Shown: positions 18,889-25,410 of the stretch, one piece after another | How positions within the stretch are numbered: position 1 is the first letter of the stretch | Layout: every line of letters starts with the position of its first letter | Origin: an uncultured Roseburia sp. | Lineage (GTDB): Bacteria; Bacillota; Clostridia; Lachnospirales; Lachnospiraceae | Direction of reading: 5' to 3' | NCBI GenBank assembly: GCA_947642555.1 | Contig: CANRSX010000007.1 | Location: 62,001 to 126,000 of the forward strand | Length of the DNA stretch: 64,000 nucleotides | Notes under the pieces: generated by a model | Told to the model about the DNA's origin: nothing | What the model saw: only the letters and a program-made list of their open reading frames with translations | The model's database searches: none | Made by a program: the position numbers and the translations under genes

Positions 18889-18904
18889 TCTTTGCAATCT
18901 CCTG

Positions 18905-18932
18905 TTGTAAAAAAATTAAAAAATGATATAAT
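18905..18932 (+). promoter_or_regulatory. Promoter of the ATPase-topB transcript
   Basis: TTGTAA (18905-18910) and a perfect TATAAT (18927-18932) with a 16-base, very AT-rich spacer. Confidence 0.75.
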
Positions 18933-18999
18933 TATTTTAAAATCTGTGTTTCGGTTTCTCAGATGCCGGAACACAGGCACGTTCGGGGGAGATGCAGGG

Positions 19000-20364
19000 A
19001 TGGTTGTGAAATCACAGATTGTAAAGGAGCTTGAGAAGGAATACGCACAGACGGGCAATCAGATTTATGTTCTGTACGGGCGGGCGGACTCCGAGAAGGA
19101 GCTTTTGCTGCGCGCCTTTCTTCAGAAGAAGAAGTATTTTTATTATCGAGCGAGGCAGGTGTCGGAGGACGAGCAGCGCAGGCAGATGGGGCAGGAGATT
19201 GCGGCGCAGTATGAGGTGCATCTGCAGAAGTATACCTATGAGGAATATTTTAACCGGGTCAAAAGCGGGGATCCGTCGAAGCTGGTCGTGGTCATCGACG
19301 AGTTTCAGTATATTGTGAAGCGGGATCCCGGCTTTTTTGAAGCGCTCTTAAAGCTTCGGGCGAAGCGGCTTTATCCGGGGCCTGTGATGATCCTGCTGTG
19401 CAGCTCTGCGGTAGCCTGGGTGGAGCGGGAGCTTACCGACTGTATTGGGGAGGCGGCCCAGAAAAAGATCGCGCGCCGGATCAAGCTCTCCAATCTGAAT
19501 TTCCTTGAAGTGGTGCGCGCGCTGCCGGAGTACCCGGTTGCCGAGTGCATCAAGGTCTACGGGATCATCGGCGGGGTGCCGGGGTACATCAACCGGTGGA
19601 ACGCGAAGGCGGATATCCGCACGAACATCTGCCGGCAGATCTTATCCCCCAACGGATACCTGTACGGGGCGGCGGAGGAGCTGATCGGGGCGAGCCTCCG
19701 GGAGCTTTCCGTGTATGAGACGATCCTGGCGCAGATTGCGCAGGGACACGATAAGTTAAATGATCTTTTTCTGCAGACCGGATTTTCGCGGGCGAAGATC
19801 AGCGTCTATATGAAAAACCTGGCGGCCTTTGACATCGTCCAGAAGGTGGTCTCGTTCGAGACCGGAGGATGGGAGAATGCGAAGAAGGGGATTTACCGGA
19901 TCCGGGATAATTATGTGAATTTCTGGTTCCATTTCATTTGTCTACACTTGTCGAAGCTGTACCTGCTCCCCGCGGAGGAATTTTATGACCGCTATATCGC
20001 GCCGGGGCTGGATACCTATTTAAACCGTTATTTTACCGAGGTCTGCATGGAGTACTTAGGGCTTCTGGGGCTGGTGGGAAAGCTGCCGCTTCAGATCGCG
20101 AAGATGGGGACCTGGGTCGGAAAGGAGGGCAATATCGACATCATTGCCCAGAATCCGATCCGGCAGAATATGGTCGGCCTCTGTAACTGGGAGAAGCCGC
20201 TGCTCACGATGGAGATGTGCGAGGAGCTCTTTGCCAGTATGCAGAAGGCAAGAATTAAAGCGGAATATTATTTTCTGTTTTCCGCGAAGGGCTTTGATCC
20301 CTCGGTGAAGGAGATGGCAGAGAAGGATCCGCGTTTTATTCTGGTGGATATGAATGAGTTATAA
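19000..20364 (+). CDS. DUF234-type ATPase with degenerate catalytic motifs
   Basis: This 454-residue protein has the layout of archaeal-type ATPases: an ATPase domain (about residues 1-215), a helical and winged-helix middle (about 250-330) and a C-terminal DUF234 nuclease-like domain (about 340-454). The Walker B LVVVIDEFQYIV is present, but Walker A reads GRADSEKE (27-34), where the Gly and Ser/Thr around the Lys are replaced by Glu. In the C-terminal domain IDIIA is kept, yet the following ExK site is LCN (near 394). Both active sites therefore look eroded. The start at 19000 follows GCAGGG. topB follows 23 bases later. Confidence 0.8.
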   Translation: MVVKSQIVKELEKEYAQTGNQIYVLYGRADSEKELLLRAFLQKKKYFYYRARQVSEDEQRRQMGQEIAAQYEVHLQKYTYEEYFNRVKSGDPSKLVVVIDEFQYIVKRDPGFFEALLKLRAKRLYPGPVMILLCSSAVAWVERELTDCIGEAAQKKIARRIKLSNLNFLEVVRALPEYPVAECIKVYGIIGGVPGYINRWNAKADIRTNICRQILSPNGYLYGAAEELIGASLRELSVYETILAQIAQGHDKLNDLFLQTGFSRAKISVYMKNLAAFDIVQKVVSFETGGWENAKKGIYRIRDNYVNFWFHFICLHLSKLYLLPAEEFYDRYIAPGLDTYLNRYFTEVCMEYLGLLGLVGKLPLQIAKMGTWVGKEGNIDIIAQNPIRQNMVGLCNWEKPLLTMEMCEELFASMQKARIKAEYYFLFSAKGFDPSVKEMAEKDPRFILVDMNEL

Positions 20365-20387
20365 ATGATACAGATGTGGAGGAAAAT

Positions 20388-23300
20388 TTGGCAAAGTCAT
20401 TGATTATCACGGAGAAGCCGAGCGTGGCGCAGGAGTTTGCAAAGATTCTCGGCGTGTCCGGACGGCGTGACGGTTACATAGAAAACGATACCTATGTGAT
20501 CACCTGGTGTGTGGGACACCTGGTGGAGATGGTGTATCCGGAAGAATATGATGCGCGGTATAAAAGGTGGAGACTGGAGGATCTGCCTTTTTTGCCGGAG
20601 GAGTATAAATATCATGTGATTCCTTCGGTGAGCCGGCAGTATGACGTGGTGCACAGGATGCTGCAGAGGGAGGACATCGACACGGTCTACTGGGCGGGGG
20701 ATGCCGGAAAGGAAGGACAGACGATCGAAGAGAACATCCGCAGGTTCGGCGGCGTGCGGACGGGCATGCGGGAGCTTCGGGTGTGGATCGATTCCCAGAC
20801 AGAGGAGGAGATTCTGCGCGGGATCCGGGAGGCGAAGGATATGTCGGAGTACGACAACCTGGCAAAATCCGGCACCATGCGCACGATTGAGGATTATGCG
20901 ATGGGCATCAATTTTTCCCGCGTGATGTCCGTCCGGTACGGACGGCTGTTAAACGACGCCGCGGGGACGAAGAGCTACACGGCGATTGCGGTCGGGCGTG
21001 TGATGACCTGCGTGCTCGGCATGGTGGTGATTCGGGAGCGGGAGATCCGGAATTTTACGGAGACGCCCTTTTACCGGGTGGTGGGGGGATTCCTGCCGGA
21101 GGGTGCCGACAGGGAGGTCTCCGTGATGCAGCCGGGGGAAGCAGCCAGCACCCCGCTGGCGGGGAGCATCGTCGCGGAGTGGAAGGCGGTGTCCGGTTCG
21201 AAGTATTACGAATCCCCTCTTTTATATAAGGAAAACGGATTTAAAAAGCAGGAGAGCGCGAATGCGCTGATCGAAGAGTTAAACGGGCGGCCCGCGGTCG
21301 TGGAGGTCGTGGAGCGCAGCGTGCAGAAGAAGCGGGCGCCGCTGCTGTTTAACCTTGCGGAGCTTCAGGCGGAATGCGCAAAGCGCTTTAAGATCAGCCC
21401 GGATGAGACCCTGGCGGCGGCACAGGAGCTCTATGAGAAAAAGCTGACGACCTATCCCAGGACGGATGCGCGAGTGCTGTCTACAGCTGTCGCAAAGGAG
21501 GTCGGAAAAAATATCAGCCGTCTGAAGAGCTATGAGCCGGTGGCCGGCTTTGCCCAGAGGATTATGCAGGAAGGGAAGTATAAGCAGATCGCCCGCACAC
21601 AGTATACGGACGACGCGAAGGTCACGGATCACTATGCGATCATCCCGACCGGCCAGCTGTCGGAGCTCTCCGCCTTAAATGCCTTACAGCGCAGGATTTA
21701 CGATCTGATTGTCCGACGGTTTTTAAGCATTTTTTATCCGCCGGCGGAGTATGATCATGTACGGCTGACGGTGGCCGTGGCGGGGGAGAAGCTGTTTTCC
21801 TCCGCGAAGGCGCTAAAATCGCCCGGATACTTAGAGATTGCGGGACTGCCGCGCCGTGCGGGCGAGGACGGCGGTGTGACGCCGGAAACCGCTGGCTCCG
21901 AGAAGCGGGGATCGGCAGAGCTGCGCGGATCCAAAGATCAGGAGGGCGGCGAAGGGGAGTCAGAAATCCGAAAGGACGGCGACGGGAGTTCCGAGTCGGA
22001 AAACGCGGCGCTCCTGCGGTACGCGGAGCGTCTGCATAAGGGCGACGCGCTGAGTGTGTGCGGCTATGAGATCCGGGAGGGAAAGACCTCCCCGCCGAAA
22101 CGCTACACCTCCGGCTCGATGGTGCTGGCGATGGAAAACGCCGGCCAGCTGATCGAGGAGGAGGAGCTGCGGGAGCAGATCAAAGGCTCCGGGATCGGCA
22201 CGTCCGCGACCCGCGCGGAGATCATCAAAAAACTGATCCGCATCGGCTATCTGCATCTGAATAAAAAGACGCAGGTGCTGACCCCGGAGGCGCTTGGCGA
22301 GATGATCTTTGAGGTGGTGTCCATGACGGTTCCGGCGCTCTTAAATCCAAAGATGACGGCTTCCTGGGAAAAGGGGCTCGACGGAATCACGCGCGGAACC
22401 GTGGTCATGGAGGATTACCGGGAAAAGCTCGAGGCCTTCATCCGAAAGGAAACCGTCGCCATGATCGATCAGGATTTAAGCGGCGAGGTGGCGGCACGGA
22501 TCCGTCCGTTTGTTGGGAAGGGAGCCAAAGGGATCGCCGCAAAGCATCCGATTGACGCGGTCTGTCCGCTCTGCGGGGGCGGCATGGAGACGACGCCCTT
22601 CGGCTACGGGTGCAGCAATTATAAGCGGGACGGCAGCGGCTGCCGGTTTTCGATCGGCCAGATCGCGGGACGTGATCTGAGCGAGGAGGAGGCGGCGGCC
22701 CTGCTGCGGGAAGGCCGCACGGAGGTCTTAAACGGCTTTGTCTCGAAGGCGAAAAAAAAGTTCTCCGCAGCCCTCTGTCTTCAGAAGAATGAGGATGGAA
22801 AAGTTAATATTGGATTTGATTTTTCGCAAAATGAGCCGGAGATCCTGGAGGGTGTCAGCTGCCCGGCCTGCGGGGAGCCGATGGTACACACGGCGTACGG
22901 ATACAGCTGCCAGAAGCGGGGAAACGAGCCGGGAGCCTGTTATTTCTCGATCGGGAAGATCGCGGGAAAGGAGTTAAACGCCGCGCAGGTGACCGCGCTG
23001 CTGACGGAGGGACGCACGGCGACGATCCGCGGCTTTTCCTCGAAAAACGGAAAGAAGTTTGACGCCTGCCTGGCCCTGGAGACGGATGAGACGGGAAAAA
23101 AGAACGTGACCTTTGACTTTGAGCACGTGGAGGCAAAGAAGATAAAGGATGTCAGCTGCCCGGTCTGCGGCGGGGACATCGTAAAGACGCCGTTCGGCTA
23201 CGGCTGCGCTAACTATGTGAAGGACGACCCGGAAAGCTGCCGGTTTTCCATCGGAAAGATCGCGGAAAAATCACTGACGGAGACAAATGTAAAAGAACTG

Positions 23301-24560
23301 CTGCGGGACGGGCGAACCTCGACCATGCGGGGATTTTCGTCGAAGAACGGGAAAAAATTTGACGCGCGGATCGTCTTAAGCCGTGATGAAGCGGGAAAGG
23401 TGACGGGGTTAAAGTTTGACTTTACGGATCTTGAGGCGAAGAAGATAAAGGACGTGGCCTGTCCGGTCTGCGGCGGAGATATCGTAAAGACGCCGTTTGG
23501 ATTCGGCTGCGCGAACTATGCGAAGGATAACCCAGAGAGCTGCCGGTTTTCGATCGGAAAGATCGCGGGCGTCACGTTAAAGGAGGCGCAGGTGAAGGAA
23601 CTTTTACTCCGCAAAAAGACGGAACCGATCGACGGCTTTGTGGCGAAGACGGGCATGATGTTTTCCGCGCCGCTTAAGCTGACCGAAGACGGCCAGGTGG
23701 TCTTTGATTTCCCGGAGCGGCCGAAGCCGGAGGAGACCACAGTGAGCTGTCCGAAGTGCGGGGAGAAGCTGATGCGGAGCCAGTGGCAGTATGAATGTAA
23801 ATGTGGATTTAAGATATTTCACACAGTGGCGAAGGTTCCGCTTTCCGAGGAGATCATGCGGGAGCTGTTTGCGGCCGGACGGACGAAGGAACGCGTCGGG
23901 GGATTCACCTCAAAGGCCGGAAATCCGTTTGAGGCGTACCTTGTCTTTGACGGGGAGAAGATCTCGTTTGAATTCGACCGGCCGGAGAGGAAGGAGGCAG
24001 TGAGCATCATGACAGAGGAGAAGGGCAGCGTGAAGATCCGCAGCCTGACGGAGGATGAGATCAGCGCCGGGCTGTTTGCGGAGTTTCGCCGCCGCCAGGT
24101 GGTAAACGACTGCTGGCGGAGAGCGGAGGACGGGAGCTGGACGATCCGTCCCGACCCGTTTACCGACGACTGGAGCGAGGAGGATTATGCGTATCTGGTC
24201 ACCTGTCTGCGGCATACAGTCGCTTCCGGCGGCGTGGTGTTCGGCGCGTTTGTGGGAGGGAAGCTGAAAGGCTTTGCCTCCGTAGAGGCGGACCGGTTCG
24301 GAAGCGAAGGGCAGTATATGGATCTGACCTCGCTGCACGTCTCGGAGGAGCTGCGCAGAAGCGGCATCGGAAAGCGGCTGTTTTTGCTGGCGGCGGATCA
24401 GGCGAGGGAGCGCGGCGCCGGGAAGCTCTATATTTCCGCGCACTCCGCGGCGGAGACGCAGGCGTTTTACCGCTCGCTCGGCTGCGTGGACGCAGAGGAA
24501 TACAAAAAAGAGCACGTGGAGGCAGAGCCCTATGACTGCCAGCTGGAGTACCGCGTGTAA
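20388..24560 (+). CDS. topB: DNA topoisomerase III with five C-terminal modules and a fused GNAT domain
   Basis: TopB relaxes and decatenates DNA by single-strand passage. The TTG at 20388 follows GGAGG by 5 bases and gives the usual start MAKSLIITEKPSVAQEFAKIL (1390 residues). The TOPRIM domain contains VYWAGDAGKEGQTIEENI. The active-site Tyr is in LTTYPRTDAR near 355. A polar insert (about 488-545) interrupts the core. From residue 726 five modules follow (Cys pairs at 726, 825, 924, 1025, 1121), each with CPxCG plus a conserved FSIGKIAG...GF.SK.GKKF unit; modules 3 and 4 are nearly identical. Residues 1214-1390 form a GNAT acetyltransferase (RRSGIGKRLFLL). Normal family members are about 700 residues. 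Confidence 0.93.
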   Translation: MAKSLIITEKPSVAQEFAKILGVSGRRDGYIENDTYVITWCVGHLVEMVYPEEYDARYKRWRLEDLPFLPEEYKYHVIPSVSRQYDVVHRMLQREDIDTVYWAGDAGKEGQTIEENIRRFGGVRTGMRELRVWIDSQTEEEILRGIREAKDMSEYDNLAKSGTMRTIEDYAMGINFSRVMSVRYGRLLNDAAGTKSYTAIAVGRVMTCVLGMVVIREREIRNFTETPFYRVVGGFLPEGADREVSVMQPGEAASTPLAGSIVAEWKAVSGSKYYESPLLYKENGFKKQESANALIEELNGRPAVVEVVERSVQKKRAPLLFNLAELQAECAKRFKISPDETLAAAQELYEKKLTTYPRTDARVLSTAVAKEVGKNISRLKSYEPVAGFAQRIMQEGKYKQIARTQYTDDAKVTDHYAIIPTGQLSELSALNALQRRIYDLIVRRFLSIFYPPAEYDHVRLTVAVAGEKLFSSAKALKSPGYLEIAGLPRRAGEDGGVTPETAGSEKRGSAELRGSKDQEGGEGESEIRKDGDGSSESENAALLRYAERLHKGDALSVCGYEIREGKTSPPKRYTSGSMVLAMENAGQLIEEEELREQIKGSGIGTSATRAEIIKKLIRIGYLHLNKKTQVLTPEALGEMIFEVVSMTVPALLNPKMTASWEKGLDGITRGTVVMEDYREKLEAFIRKETVAMIDQDLSGEVAARIRPFVGKGAKGIAAKHPIDAVCPLCGGGMETTPFGYGCSNYKRDGSGCRFSIGQIAGRDLSEEEAAALLREGRTEVLNGFVSKAKKKFSAALCLQKNEDGKVNIGFDFSQNEPEILEGVSCPACGEPMVHTAYGYSCQKRGNEPGACYFSIGKIAGKELNAAQVTALLTEGRTATIRGFSSKNGKKFDACLALETDETGKKNVTFDFEHVEAKKIKDVSCPVCGGDIVKTPFGYGCANYVKDDPESCRFSIGKIAEKSLTETNVKELLRDGRTSTMRGFSSKNGKKFDARIVLSRDEAGKVTGLKFDFTDLEAKKIKDVACPVCGGDIVKTPFGFGCANYAKDNPESCRFSIGKIAGVTLKEAQVKELLLRKKTEPIDGFVAKTGMMFSAPLKLTEDGQVVFDFPERPKPEETTVSCPKCGEKLMRSQWQYECKCGFKIFHTVAKVPLSEEIMRELFAAGRTKERVGGFTSKAGNPFEAYLVFDGEKISFEFDRPERKEAVSIMTEEKGSVKIRSLTEDEISAGLFAEFRRRQVVNDCWRRAEDGSWTIRPDPFTDDWSEEDYAYLVTCLRHTVASGGVVFGAFVGGKLKGFASVEADRFGSEGQYMDLTSLHVSEELRRSGIGKRLFLLAADQARERGAGKLYISAHSAAETQAFYRSLGCVDAEEYKKEHVEAEPYDCQLEYRV
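22563..23985 (+). repeat. Five tandem topoisomerase C-terminal repeat modules
   Basis: Modules begin at 22563, 22860, 23157, 23460 and 23748, so the periods are 297, 297, 303 and 288 bases. Modules 3 and 4 are close to identical at the DNA level through the Cys-rich part, which indicates recent duplication. Module 5 is the most diverged and ends without the second Cys pair spacing of the others. Confidence 0.88.
24015..24032 (+). promoter_or_regulatory. Internal Shine-Dalgarno and GTG at the start of the GNAT domain
   Basis: GAGGAGAAGG (24015-24024) lies 5 bases before an in-frame GTG (24030) that would begin MKIRSLTEDE, a natural start for a stand-alone GNAT protein. A second SD-like AAGGAGG is at 23991-23997. 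Both lie inside the topB frame. Confidence 0.55.
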
Positions 24561-24660
24561 GCAGCGCCGGACGCTTCCCGTGCCGGCAGCGCCGGACGCT
24601 TCCCGTGCCAGCAGCGCCGGGCGCTTCCCGTGCCGGCAGCGCCGGACGCTTCTCGTTCCG
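24561..24660 (+). repeat. 25-bp tandem repeat, four copies
   Basis: Four 25-bp units begin at the base after the topB stop (24561, 24586, 24611, 24636). Units 1 to 3 differ by one or two bases and unit 4 by slightly more. Across each junction GCCGGC and GCCGG pair, so the array can fold into serial hairpins. Confidence 0.92.
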
Positions 24661-24741
24661 GCGGGCATGGCCGGGCCGTCCGGCTGAAGGATGACATCGT
24701 ATCAGCATAACCGCACAAGGGTGCGGAGAAAAGAGGGAGAC

Positions 24742-25410
24742 ATGAAACGAGCAGAAATCAGTAACCTGTATGACCTTAACCAGACGATTGCGGCGGAGAT
24801 TTTTGAGGGCCTTATGTATCCGTGGGAGGCGCTGGCAAAGATCAGCGATTTTATCCGAAAGATCGGGCCGACGCTTGACCCTGAGCGCTACGAACAGCGG
24901 GGAGAGGAGATCTGGGTGGCGAAAAGCGCGAAGGTCGCGCCGACTGCTTTCTTAAATGGACCTTTAATTATTGATGAAGATGCGGAAATCCGACACTGTG
25001 CATTTATCCGCGGAAGCGCGATCGTCGGGAAGGGATCAGTGGTCGGAAATTCGACCGAGTTAAAGAACGTGATCCTGTTCAATTCCGTCCAGGTTCCGCA
25101 CTACAATTATGTCGGGGATTCGATTCTTGGATATAGGTCGCACATGGGGGCGGGTTCCATCACTTCGAATGTGAAGTCGGATAAGACGCTTGTTGTGGTA
25201 AAAGACGATGAAGAGAAAATTGAAACAGGATTAAAGAAATTCGGAGCAATGCTGGGCGATTTTGTGGAGGTCGGCTGTGGATCCGTCTTAAACCCGGGAA
25301 CCGTGGTCGGCTCTCACACGAACATTTATCCTCTTTCCTCCGTGCGCGGCGTGGTGCCGGCGGGATCCATTTATAAGAAGCGTGGGGAAATCGTGGAAAA
25401 GCAGGGATGA
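24742..25410 (+). CDS. Left-handed beta-helix (hexapeptide repeat) protein
   Basis: A 222-residue protein beginning MKRAEISNLYDLNQTIAAEIF. From about residue 60 it shows repeated hexapeptides (IWVAKSAKVAPTAFLNGPLI, IRGSAIVGKGSVVGNSTELK, GDFVEVGCGSVLNPGTVVGS) that form a left-handed parallel beta-helix, as in GlmU-like nucleotidyl/acyltransferases. The N-terminal helix pair is not a nucleotidyltransferase domain, so this is only the helix part; related proteins are often labelled UDP-GlcNAc pyrophosphorylase-like. The start at 24742 follows AGAGGGAGA. The acceptor substrate is unknown. It follows the tandem repeat on the same strand. Confidence 0.85.
   Translation: MKRAEISNLYDLNQTIAAEIFEGLMYPWEALAKISDFIRKIGPTLDPERYEQRGEEIWVAKSAKVAPTAFLNGPLIIDEDAEIRHCAFIRGSAIVGKGSVVGNSTELKNVILFNSVQVPHYNYVGDSILGYRSHMGAGSITSNVKSDKTLVVVKDDEEKIETGLKKFGAMLGDFVEVGCGSVLNPGTVVGSHTNIYPLSSVRGVVPAGSIYKKRGEIVEKQG

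Follow-up and report, generated by a model that had tools for sequence, protein, structure and literature searches.

A single frame joining topoisomerase III to a GNAT acetyltransferase in an uncultured Roseburia, a likely stop-loss fusion of neighbouring genes

One uninterrupted reading frame joins a full topoisomerase III (TopB) to a complete GNAT acetyltransferase in a 64,000-nucleotide stretch of an uncultured Roseburia sp. genome (GenBank assembly GCA_947642555.1, contig CANRSX010000007.1, positions 62,001 to 126,000, forward strand; hereafter the window). Judged by comparison with related genomes, this fused topB-GNAT frame is likely to be a lineage-specific stop-loss fusion of two working but functionally unrelated domains. 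The fusion is most likely neutral or tolerated, and probably an accident of a kind that such GNATs underwent with other neighbours too.

The joined frame itself, as claimed in an initial annotation made from the window alone, is confirmed by the open reading frame (ORF), by Pfam and by alignment of the GNAT part end to end with stand-alone orthologues. In that single frame Pfam finds Toprim, Topoisom_bac, five Toprim_Crpt stretches and Acetyltransf_1, and the assembled sequence holds no in-frame stop at 23980-24040. The mechanical ORF (20376-24560, 1394 aa) begins at a GTG, but the TTG at 20388 is to be preferred as start because its predicted pairing with the 3' end of 16S ribosomal RNA is stronger (-9.3 kcal/mol versus -2.2 for the GTG at 20376) and because TTG is also the start codon of TopB in the relative locus L035; a GGAGG lies upstream of it. 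The fused frame is single-copy in its own genome, where the sole further match is weak (E 5.5e-4).

Within the genus, 61 of 62 genomes, counting that of the window, match TopB strongly; the exception, G014, is 58% complete and gives a weak match only. This GNAT is present in 19 of the 62 (E up to 1e-15), with an identity of at least 55% in 16 of these, and is fused to TopB in the window genome alone, so that the architecture did not recur in relatives, where the initial annotation had proposed to look for it. No further examined locus has this GNAT in frame with TopB, although other GNAT families were not looked for in the TopB tails of relatives. In three genomes (G060, G053 and G050) the GNAT is a separate ORF immediately downstream of topB: in G060 and G053 the two genes share a frame, with a stop and a short spacer between them, and in G050 the GNAT lies in another frame and the ORF ends overlap. 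In G004 the GNAT stands 2.7 kb downstream of topB, with three ORFs between, and is followed by the same hexapeptide-repeat (LbH) gene as in the window. That LbH gene is directly 3' of topB (its alignment-estimated start falling within ~125 bases of the topB stop) in 25 of the 38 other genus genomes inspected, a set in which loci fetched twice were counted once; some of these genomes show scarcely any flanking sequence or none, and the GNAT is present in four. Since topB directly precedes the LbH gene in so many relatives, it is the GNAT that was inserted. In a tree the GNATs of the window, G060 and G050 fall into one group, with a Shimodaira-Hasegawa-like approximate likelihood ratio test (SH-aLRT) value of 91, under the 95 mark. 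The GNAT of G053 (L033:3634-4149), next to topB, contains an in-frame TAG and so looks broken or a draft error.

The simplest history would run from topB-LbH to topB-GNAT-LbH and then to the fusion in this lineage. As the gene order shows, a GNAT gene became established between topB and the LbH gene in one branch of the genus; the stop between topB and GNAT would then have been lost in this lineage, a step suggested by comparison, its exact mutation being no longer recoverable. This order of events is preferred because relatives keep the genes separate and adjacent and because the topB-LbH order is common. The initial annotation had held that separate genes in close relatives would speak against the fusion; separate genes were found, but in distant rather than close relatives (GNATs ~70% identical to that of the window), and they argue against an old fusion, not against the ORF.

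The junction fits this history. Coding sequence can be recognised in the TopB frame as far as FEFDRPE (~23987) and in the GNAT frame from ~24009 onward, and between them lies the Shine-Dalgarno-like GGAAGGAGG, with a predicted pairing of -11.7 kcal/mol that ranks 4 of 60 among the ATGs (in any frame) within the ORF. From its position, the ATG at 24009 is a probable former start codon of the GNAT. In genus relatives the TopB tail past the last repeat varies from a few to more than 100 residues, and therefore added sequence there appears tolerated. Together, the three genomes with separate adjacent genes, the start signals at the junction and the variable TopB tail make a neutral read-through after loss of a stop, which the initial annotation had put on a par with a functional fusion, the better supported of the two.

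Although a base error at the junction, in assembly or sequencing, could hide a stop and make two genes that are separate as in relatives look like one, I consider such an artefact unlikely. The draft genome comprises 88 contigs and has 2.88% contamination. One frame away, TGA triplets stand at 24001 and 24010, of which the latter overlaps the ATG at 24009; a stop overlapping a start codon is a common arrangement of coupled genes. However, there is no run of a base longer than three at the junction, the shared frame of topB and GNAT recurs in G060 and G053, and the error would need to fall in the ~20 bases between the end of the coding TopB frame and the start of the GNAT frame. It is also improbable that the locus makes mostly two products, with the internal site and the ATG giving free GNAT and the long protein a minor or tolerated by-product. 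The predicted pairing of GGAAGGAGG exceeds that of the topB start, but nothing ends upstream ribosomes before the GNAT, there being no stop, and of the 59 other ATGs in the ORF, 3 have a Shine-Dalgarno sequence predicted to pair at least as strongly; the internal signal could therefore be chance, and is suggestive without being significant.

Both parts of the frame look intact. The GNAT part scores 45.7 bits for Acetyltransf_1 (cut-off 20.7) and carries RRSGIGKRLFLL at 24354-24389. It keeps all 54 columns that are at least 95% conserved across 130 close GNAT members (columns defined without the window copy), as do 82 of the 129 other members. GNATs bind acetyl-CoA through an R/Q-x-x-G-x-G/A motif, here RRSGIG, whose domain residues R116, G119 and G121 are among the 54 columns and all kept. 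The end branch of the window GNAT in the tree is 0.25, versus 0.36 and 0.37 for the separate copies in G060 and G050, and its codon differences from these two are 0.51-0.53 at third positions and 0.17-0.23 at first and second. Thus the domain looks maintained, since its conserved columns are kept, its branch is no longer than those of separate copies and third-position differences dominate. The match above cut-off and the R-x-x-G-x-G motif liken it to the GNAT families PF00583/PF13673, and it reaches no NCBIfam model cut-off. To solved GNATs it is only remotely similar: a profile search (best E 2.9e-07) gave as nearest chains 2ae6, PaiA (3k9u/3ne7), presumably a polyamine acetyltransferase, and nourseothricin acetyltransferase (5c82), and none of the solved GNAT chains so matched is named as acting on DNA-bound proteins.

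In the TopB part, Toprim (30.1 bits, cut-off 23.1) is followed in order by Topoisom_bac (307.3 bits, cut-off 35.1), and the CxxC motifs of the Toprim_Crpt repeats stand at 22563, 22860, 23157, 23460 and 23748. The claim that this part holds a TOPRIM domain and the catalytic tyrosine stands, the former by Pfam and the latter by alignment of TTYPRTD to the YPR of E. coli topoisomerase III chains, whose tyrosine (residue 356 here) I take to be the catalytic one. The TOPRIM motif at 20697-20720 reads GDAGKEGQ opposite GDPDREGQ of E. coli TopB, so that the first Asp and the Glu of DxDxE are kept and the second Asp is replaced by Gly. This looks like a lineage variant, because L035 has the same motif and two paralogous TopBs have DAGREGE. 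The protein resembles bacterial topoisomerase III (PRK07726/TIGR01056; E. coli TopB 1d6m, 1i7d) in its Toprim, Topoisom_bac and YPRTD tyrosine motif, but differs from E. coli TopB and the NCBIfam topoisomerase III models in its five Toprim_Crpt repeats, its GDAGKEGQ, its C-terminal GNAT and its NCBIfam scores, which are below the curated cut-offs for all topoisomerase III models listed (514.4 versus 597; 461.5 versus 515.75). It is assigned to TopB from its Pfam domains and its alignment with the E. coli enzyme. Some 50 residues of charged, low-complexity sequence lie at ~21850-22010, just past the end of the first Topoisom_bac stretch.

What ties this GNAT to a topoisomerase? In other genera this GNAT has several other, unrelated fusion partners (Table 1), so TopB is one of many. 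The loci compared were the best 80 of 105 relatives from a contig scan together with genus, family and order samples, which makes the sample in the tree a non-random one. The tree excludes L033 and L155, which have internal stops, as well as 10 identical rows and second copies of loci already included (L190, L210, L211 and others). Among the 144 distinct GNAT rows, 125 are stand-alone, as the initial annotation had taken this subtype to be, but 19 are extended by at least 100 aa, with at least 16 changes between fused and separate states on the tree, a rough figure because 70 of its 141 forks are poorly supported. Like the window frame, these other fusions place an unrelated partner in frame with the GNAT, before or after it, but the window partner is a large DNA enzyme and the window keeps a Met near the GNAT start, whereas L117, L142 and L172, by eye, have none within 15 residues of it. 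The fusion of one GNAT family to at least nine Pfam-supported kinds of partner is a warning against inferring function from a single fusion. In L142:5614-6969 one frame encodes a three-part protein of glyoxalase, GNAT and a C_GCAxxG_C_C redox domain.

The idea that this GNAT is unusually prone to fusion was rejected, since its rate is not above that of a control. In an evenly drawn sample of the taxonomic family, 7 of 43 matches of this GNAT (the window, picked as fused, included) lie in frames of at least 250 aa, versus 4 of 35 for a control GNAT, the L216 family (Fisher p = 0.75). Two smaller control GNATs gave 1 of 6 (240 genomes, E up to 1e-20) and 0 of 1. Acetyltransf_1 genes at large, in eight genomes, gave 31 in such frames among the 150 rows listed of 193 matches, a background that mixes families of different length and lists three frames twice. 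As the control and background rates are similar, GNATs in long frames are ordinary in this taxonomic family. Of the seven long-frame matches, five have known partners (TopB, APH, HD, GNAT, and RibD_C by likeness to L189) and two do not. The control GNAT, although of a different GNAT family, likewise shows sporadic fusions in the same taxonomic family, but in two architectures among its 35 matches: three genomes share one C-terminal partner, which I take to be CobT-like, and a fourth has another N-terminal part. Seven different frames versus two control architectures are no more than suggestive.

These comparisons bear on the other proposal of the initial annotation, that the GNAT acetylates DNA-bound proteins or the enzyme itself. 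A GNAT tethered to TopB could in this way tune DNA topology, and both domains are intact in one open frame. PMC5983628 reports that non-enzymatic acetylation lowers the activity of E. coli topoisomerase I, so an effect is conceivable. Furthermore, a second lineage has a different TopB paralogue next to, and downstream of, this GNAT (L153/L210, L161 and L211), and thus a small chance of a link to TopB stays. In L153:6016-8879 and L161:5995-8867 the GNAT is a separate gene directly upstream of that paralogue; in L211 it is upstream too, after an HD part. However, this neighbourhood is probably one event, because its three genomes share the same other neighbours; the fusion is found in only 1 of 62 genus genomes; the same GNAT joins unrelated enzymes elsewhere, at a rate not above that of the control; and the solved chains matched include PaiA and nourseothricin acetyltransferase, none named for DNA-bound targets. 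I give functional coupling little credence, and find no support here for the link between acetyl-CoA and DNA topology that would follow if the GNAT did act on the topoisomerase. Less likely still, indeed very improbable, is a view of the GNAT subfamily as a portable unit, acetylating whatever protein it is attached to or regulated by that protein, and here tuning DNA topology with the level of acetyl-CoA. No description of a TopB-GNAT fusion was found in a literature search judged by titles and the openings of abstracts.

The commonest neighbours of this GNAT, over 85 loci and the window, are an ABC transporter-like cluster (by eye, 13 loci) and TopB (7 loci), although some TopB-neighbour loci were chosen for that, four of the seven are one other lineage, and L153 and L210 are the same genome. 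Common phage or plasmid cargo was considered and rejected, as the viral, plasmid and phage collections are nearly empty of relatives: viral contigs held one partial GNAT relative (11 stretches matched the pattern), plasmids one GNAT record (Subdoligranulum, 57.5%) and phages no GNAT relative at E up to 1e-15, and a scan of viral contigs with the junction protein found no relative.

Stop-loss fusion of two unrelated domains thus remains the preferred explanation. In the fused protein two enzymes most likely act independently of each other on a single chain. The topoisomerase would suffer little, since its C-terminal tail is variable and tolerates change; the GNAT part would fold alone and go on acetylating a substrate of its own, which is probably unrelated to DNA and either a small molecule or a peptide. 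Some free GNAT may also still be made from the former ribosome binding site and ATG. Several points weigh on the other side. The fusion is seen in one genome of the species and may not be fixed; its age is uncertain, as the nearest relatives are only ~70% identical; a selected bifunctional enzyme would show intact domains too; and the internal ribosome binding site, by the comparison with other ATGs in the ORF given above, is unexceptional. If the full-length protein is made, the locus would be a clear snapshot of a gene fusion, with the old start signals perhaps still present.

Table 1. Features of the fused frame and its surroundings, and partners joined to the same GNAT at other loci
Feature	Position or locus	Strand	Remarks
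Fused topB-GNAT frame	20388..24560	+	1390 codons, TTG start, TAA stop
Topoisomerase III (TopB) part	20388..24008	+	Pfam; PDB search: Toprim, Topoisom_bac, then five Toprim_Crpt repeats
Tyr codon of TTYPRTD, taken as catalytic Tyr	21453..21455	+	residue 356 counted from TTG 20388
Shine-Dalgarno-like GGAAGGAGG	23989..23997	+	within junction; 11 bases before ATG 24009
In-frame ATG	24009..24011	+	close to where stand-alone GNAT orthologues start
GNAT acetyltransferase domain, complete	24009..24557	+	Pfam; 54/54 conserved columns
Upstream ATPase	18892..20364	+	DUF234 above Pfam cut-off, ATPase_2 just below; mechanical TTG start
Hexapeptide-repeat (LbH) protein, next gene	24742..25410	+	start picked by Shine-Dalgarno sequence; mechanical ORF from 24691
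NUDIX	L152		above Pfam cut-off
Glyoxalase_2 + C_GCAxxG_C_C	L142		above Pfam cut-off
CutC	L156		above Pfam cut-off
RibD_C	L189		above Pfam cut-off
HD	L079		above Pfam cut-off
APH	L201		above Pfam cut-off; GNAT a distant member, ~41% identical
Second GNAT	L078		above Pfam cut-off
ParB_N	L117		match under Pfam cut-off
Hydrolase-like partner	L101, L138, L160		named by eye; no Pfam match
GNAT-like N-part	L172		named by eye; no separate Pfam match
NUDIX	L174		named by eye only, without Pfam scan
Kinase-like part	L179		named by eye only, without Pfam scan
	L067		partner without Pfam match
	L202		extended GNAT row; partner not assigned, without Pfam scan

Immediately 3' of the stop codon of the fused gene lies a 25-base tandem repeat in four copies (24561-24662), the 24-base pattern of which has no other site in the genome at up to 3 mismatches, and no promoter-like or terminator-like site was found in 23800-24760. 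On the other side of the fused gene, the true start of the upstream ATPase (18892..20364) probably lies further in than the mechanical one, and this ATPase precedes topB in the same gene order in G004.

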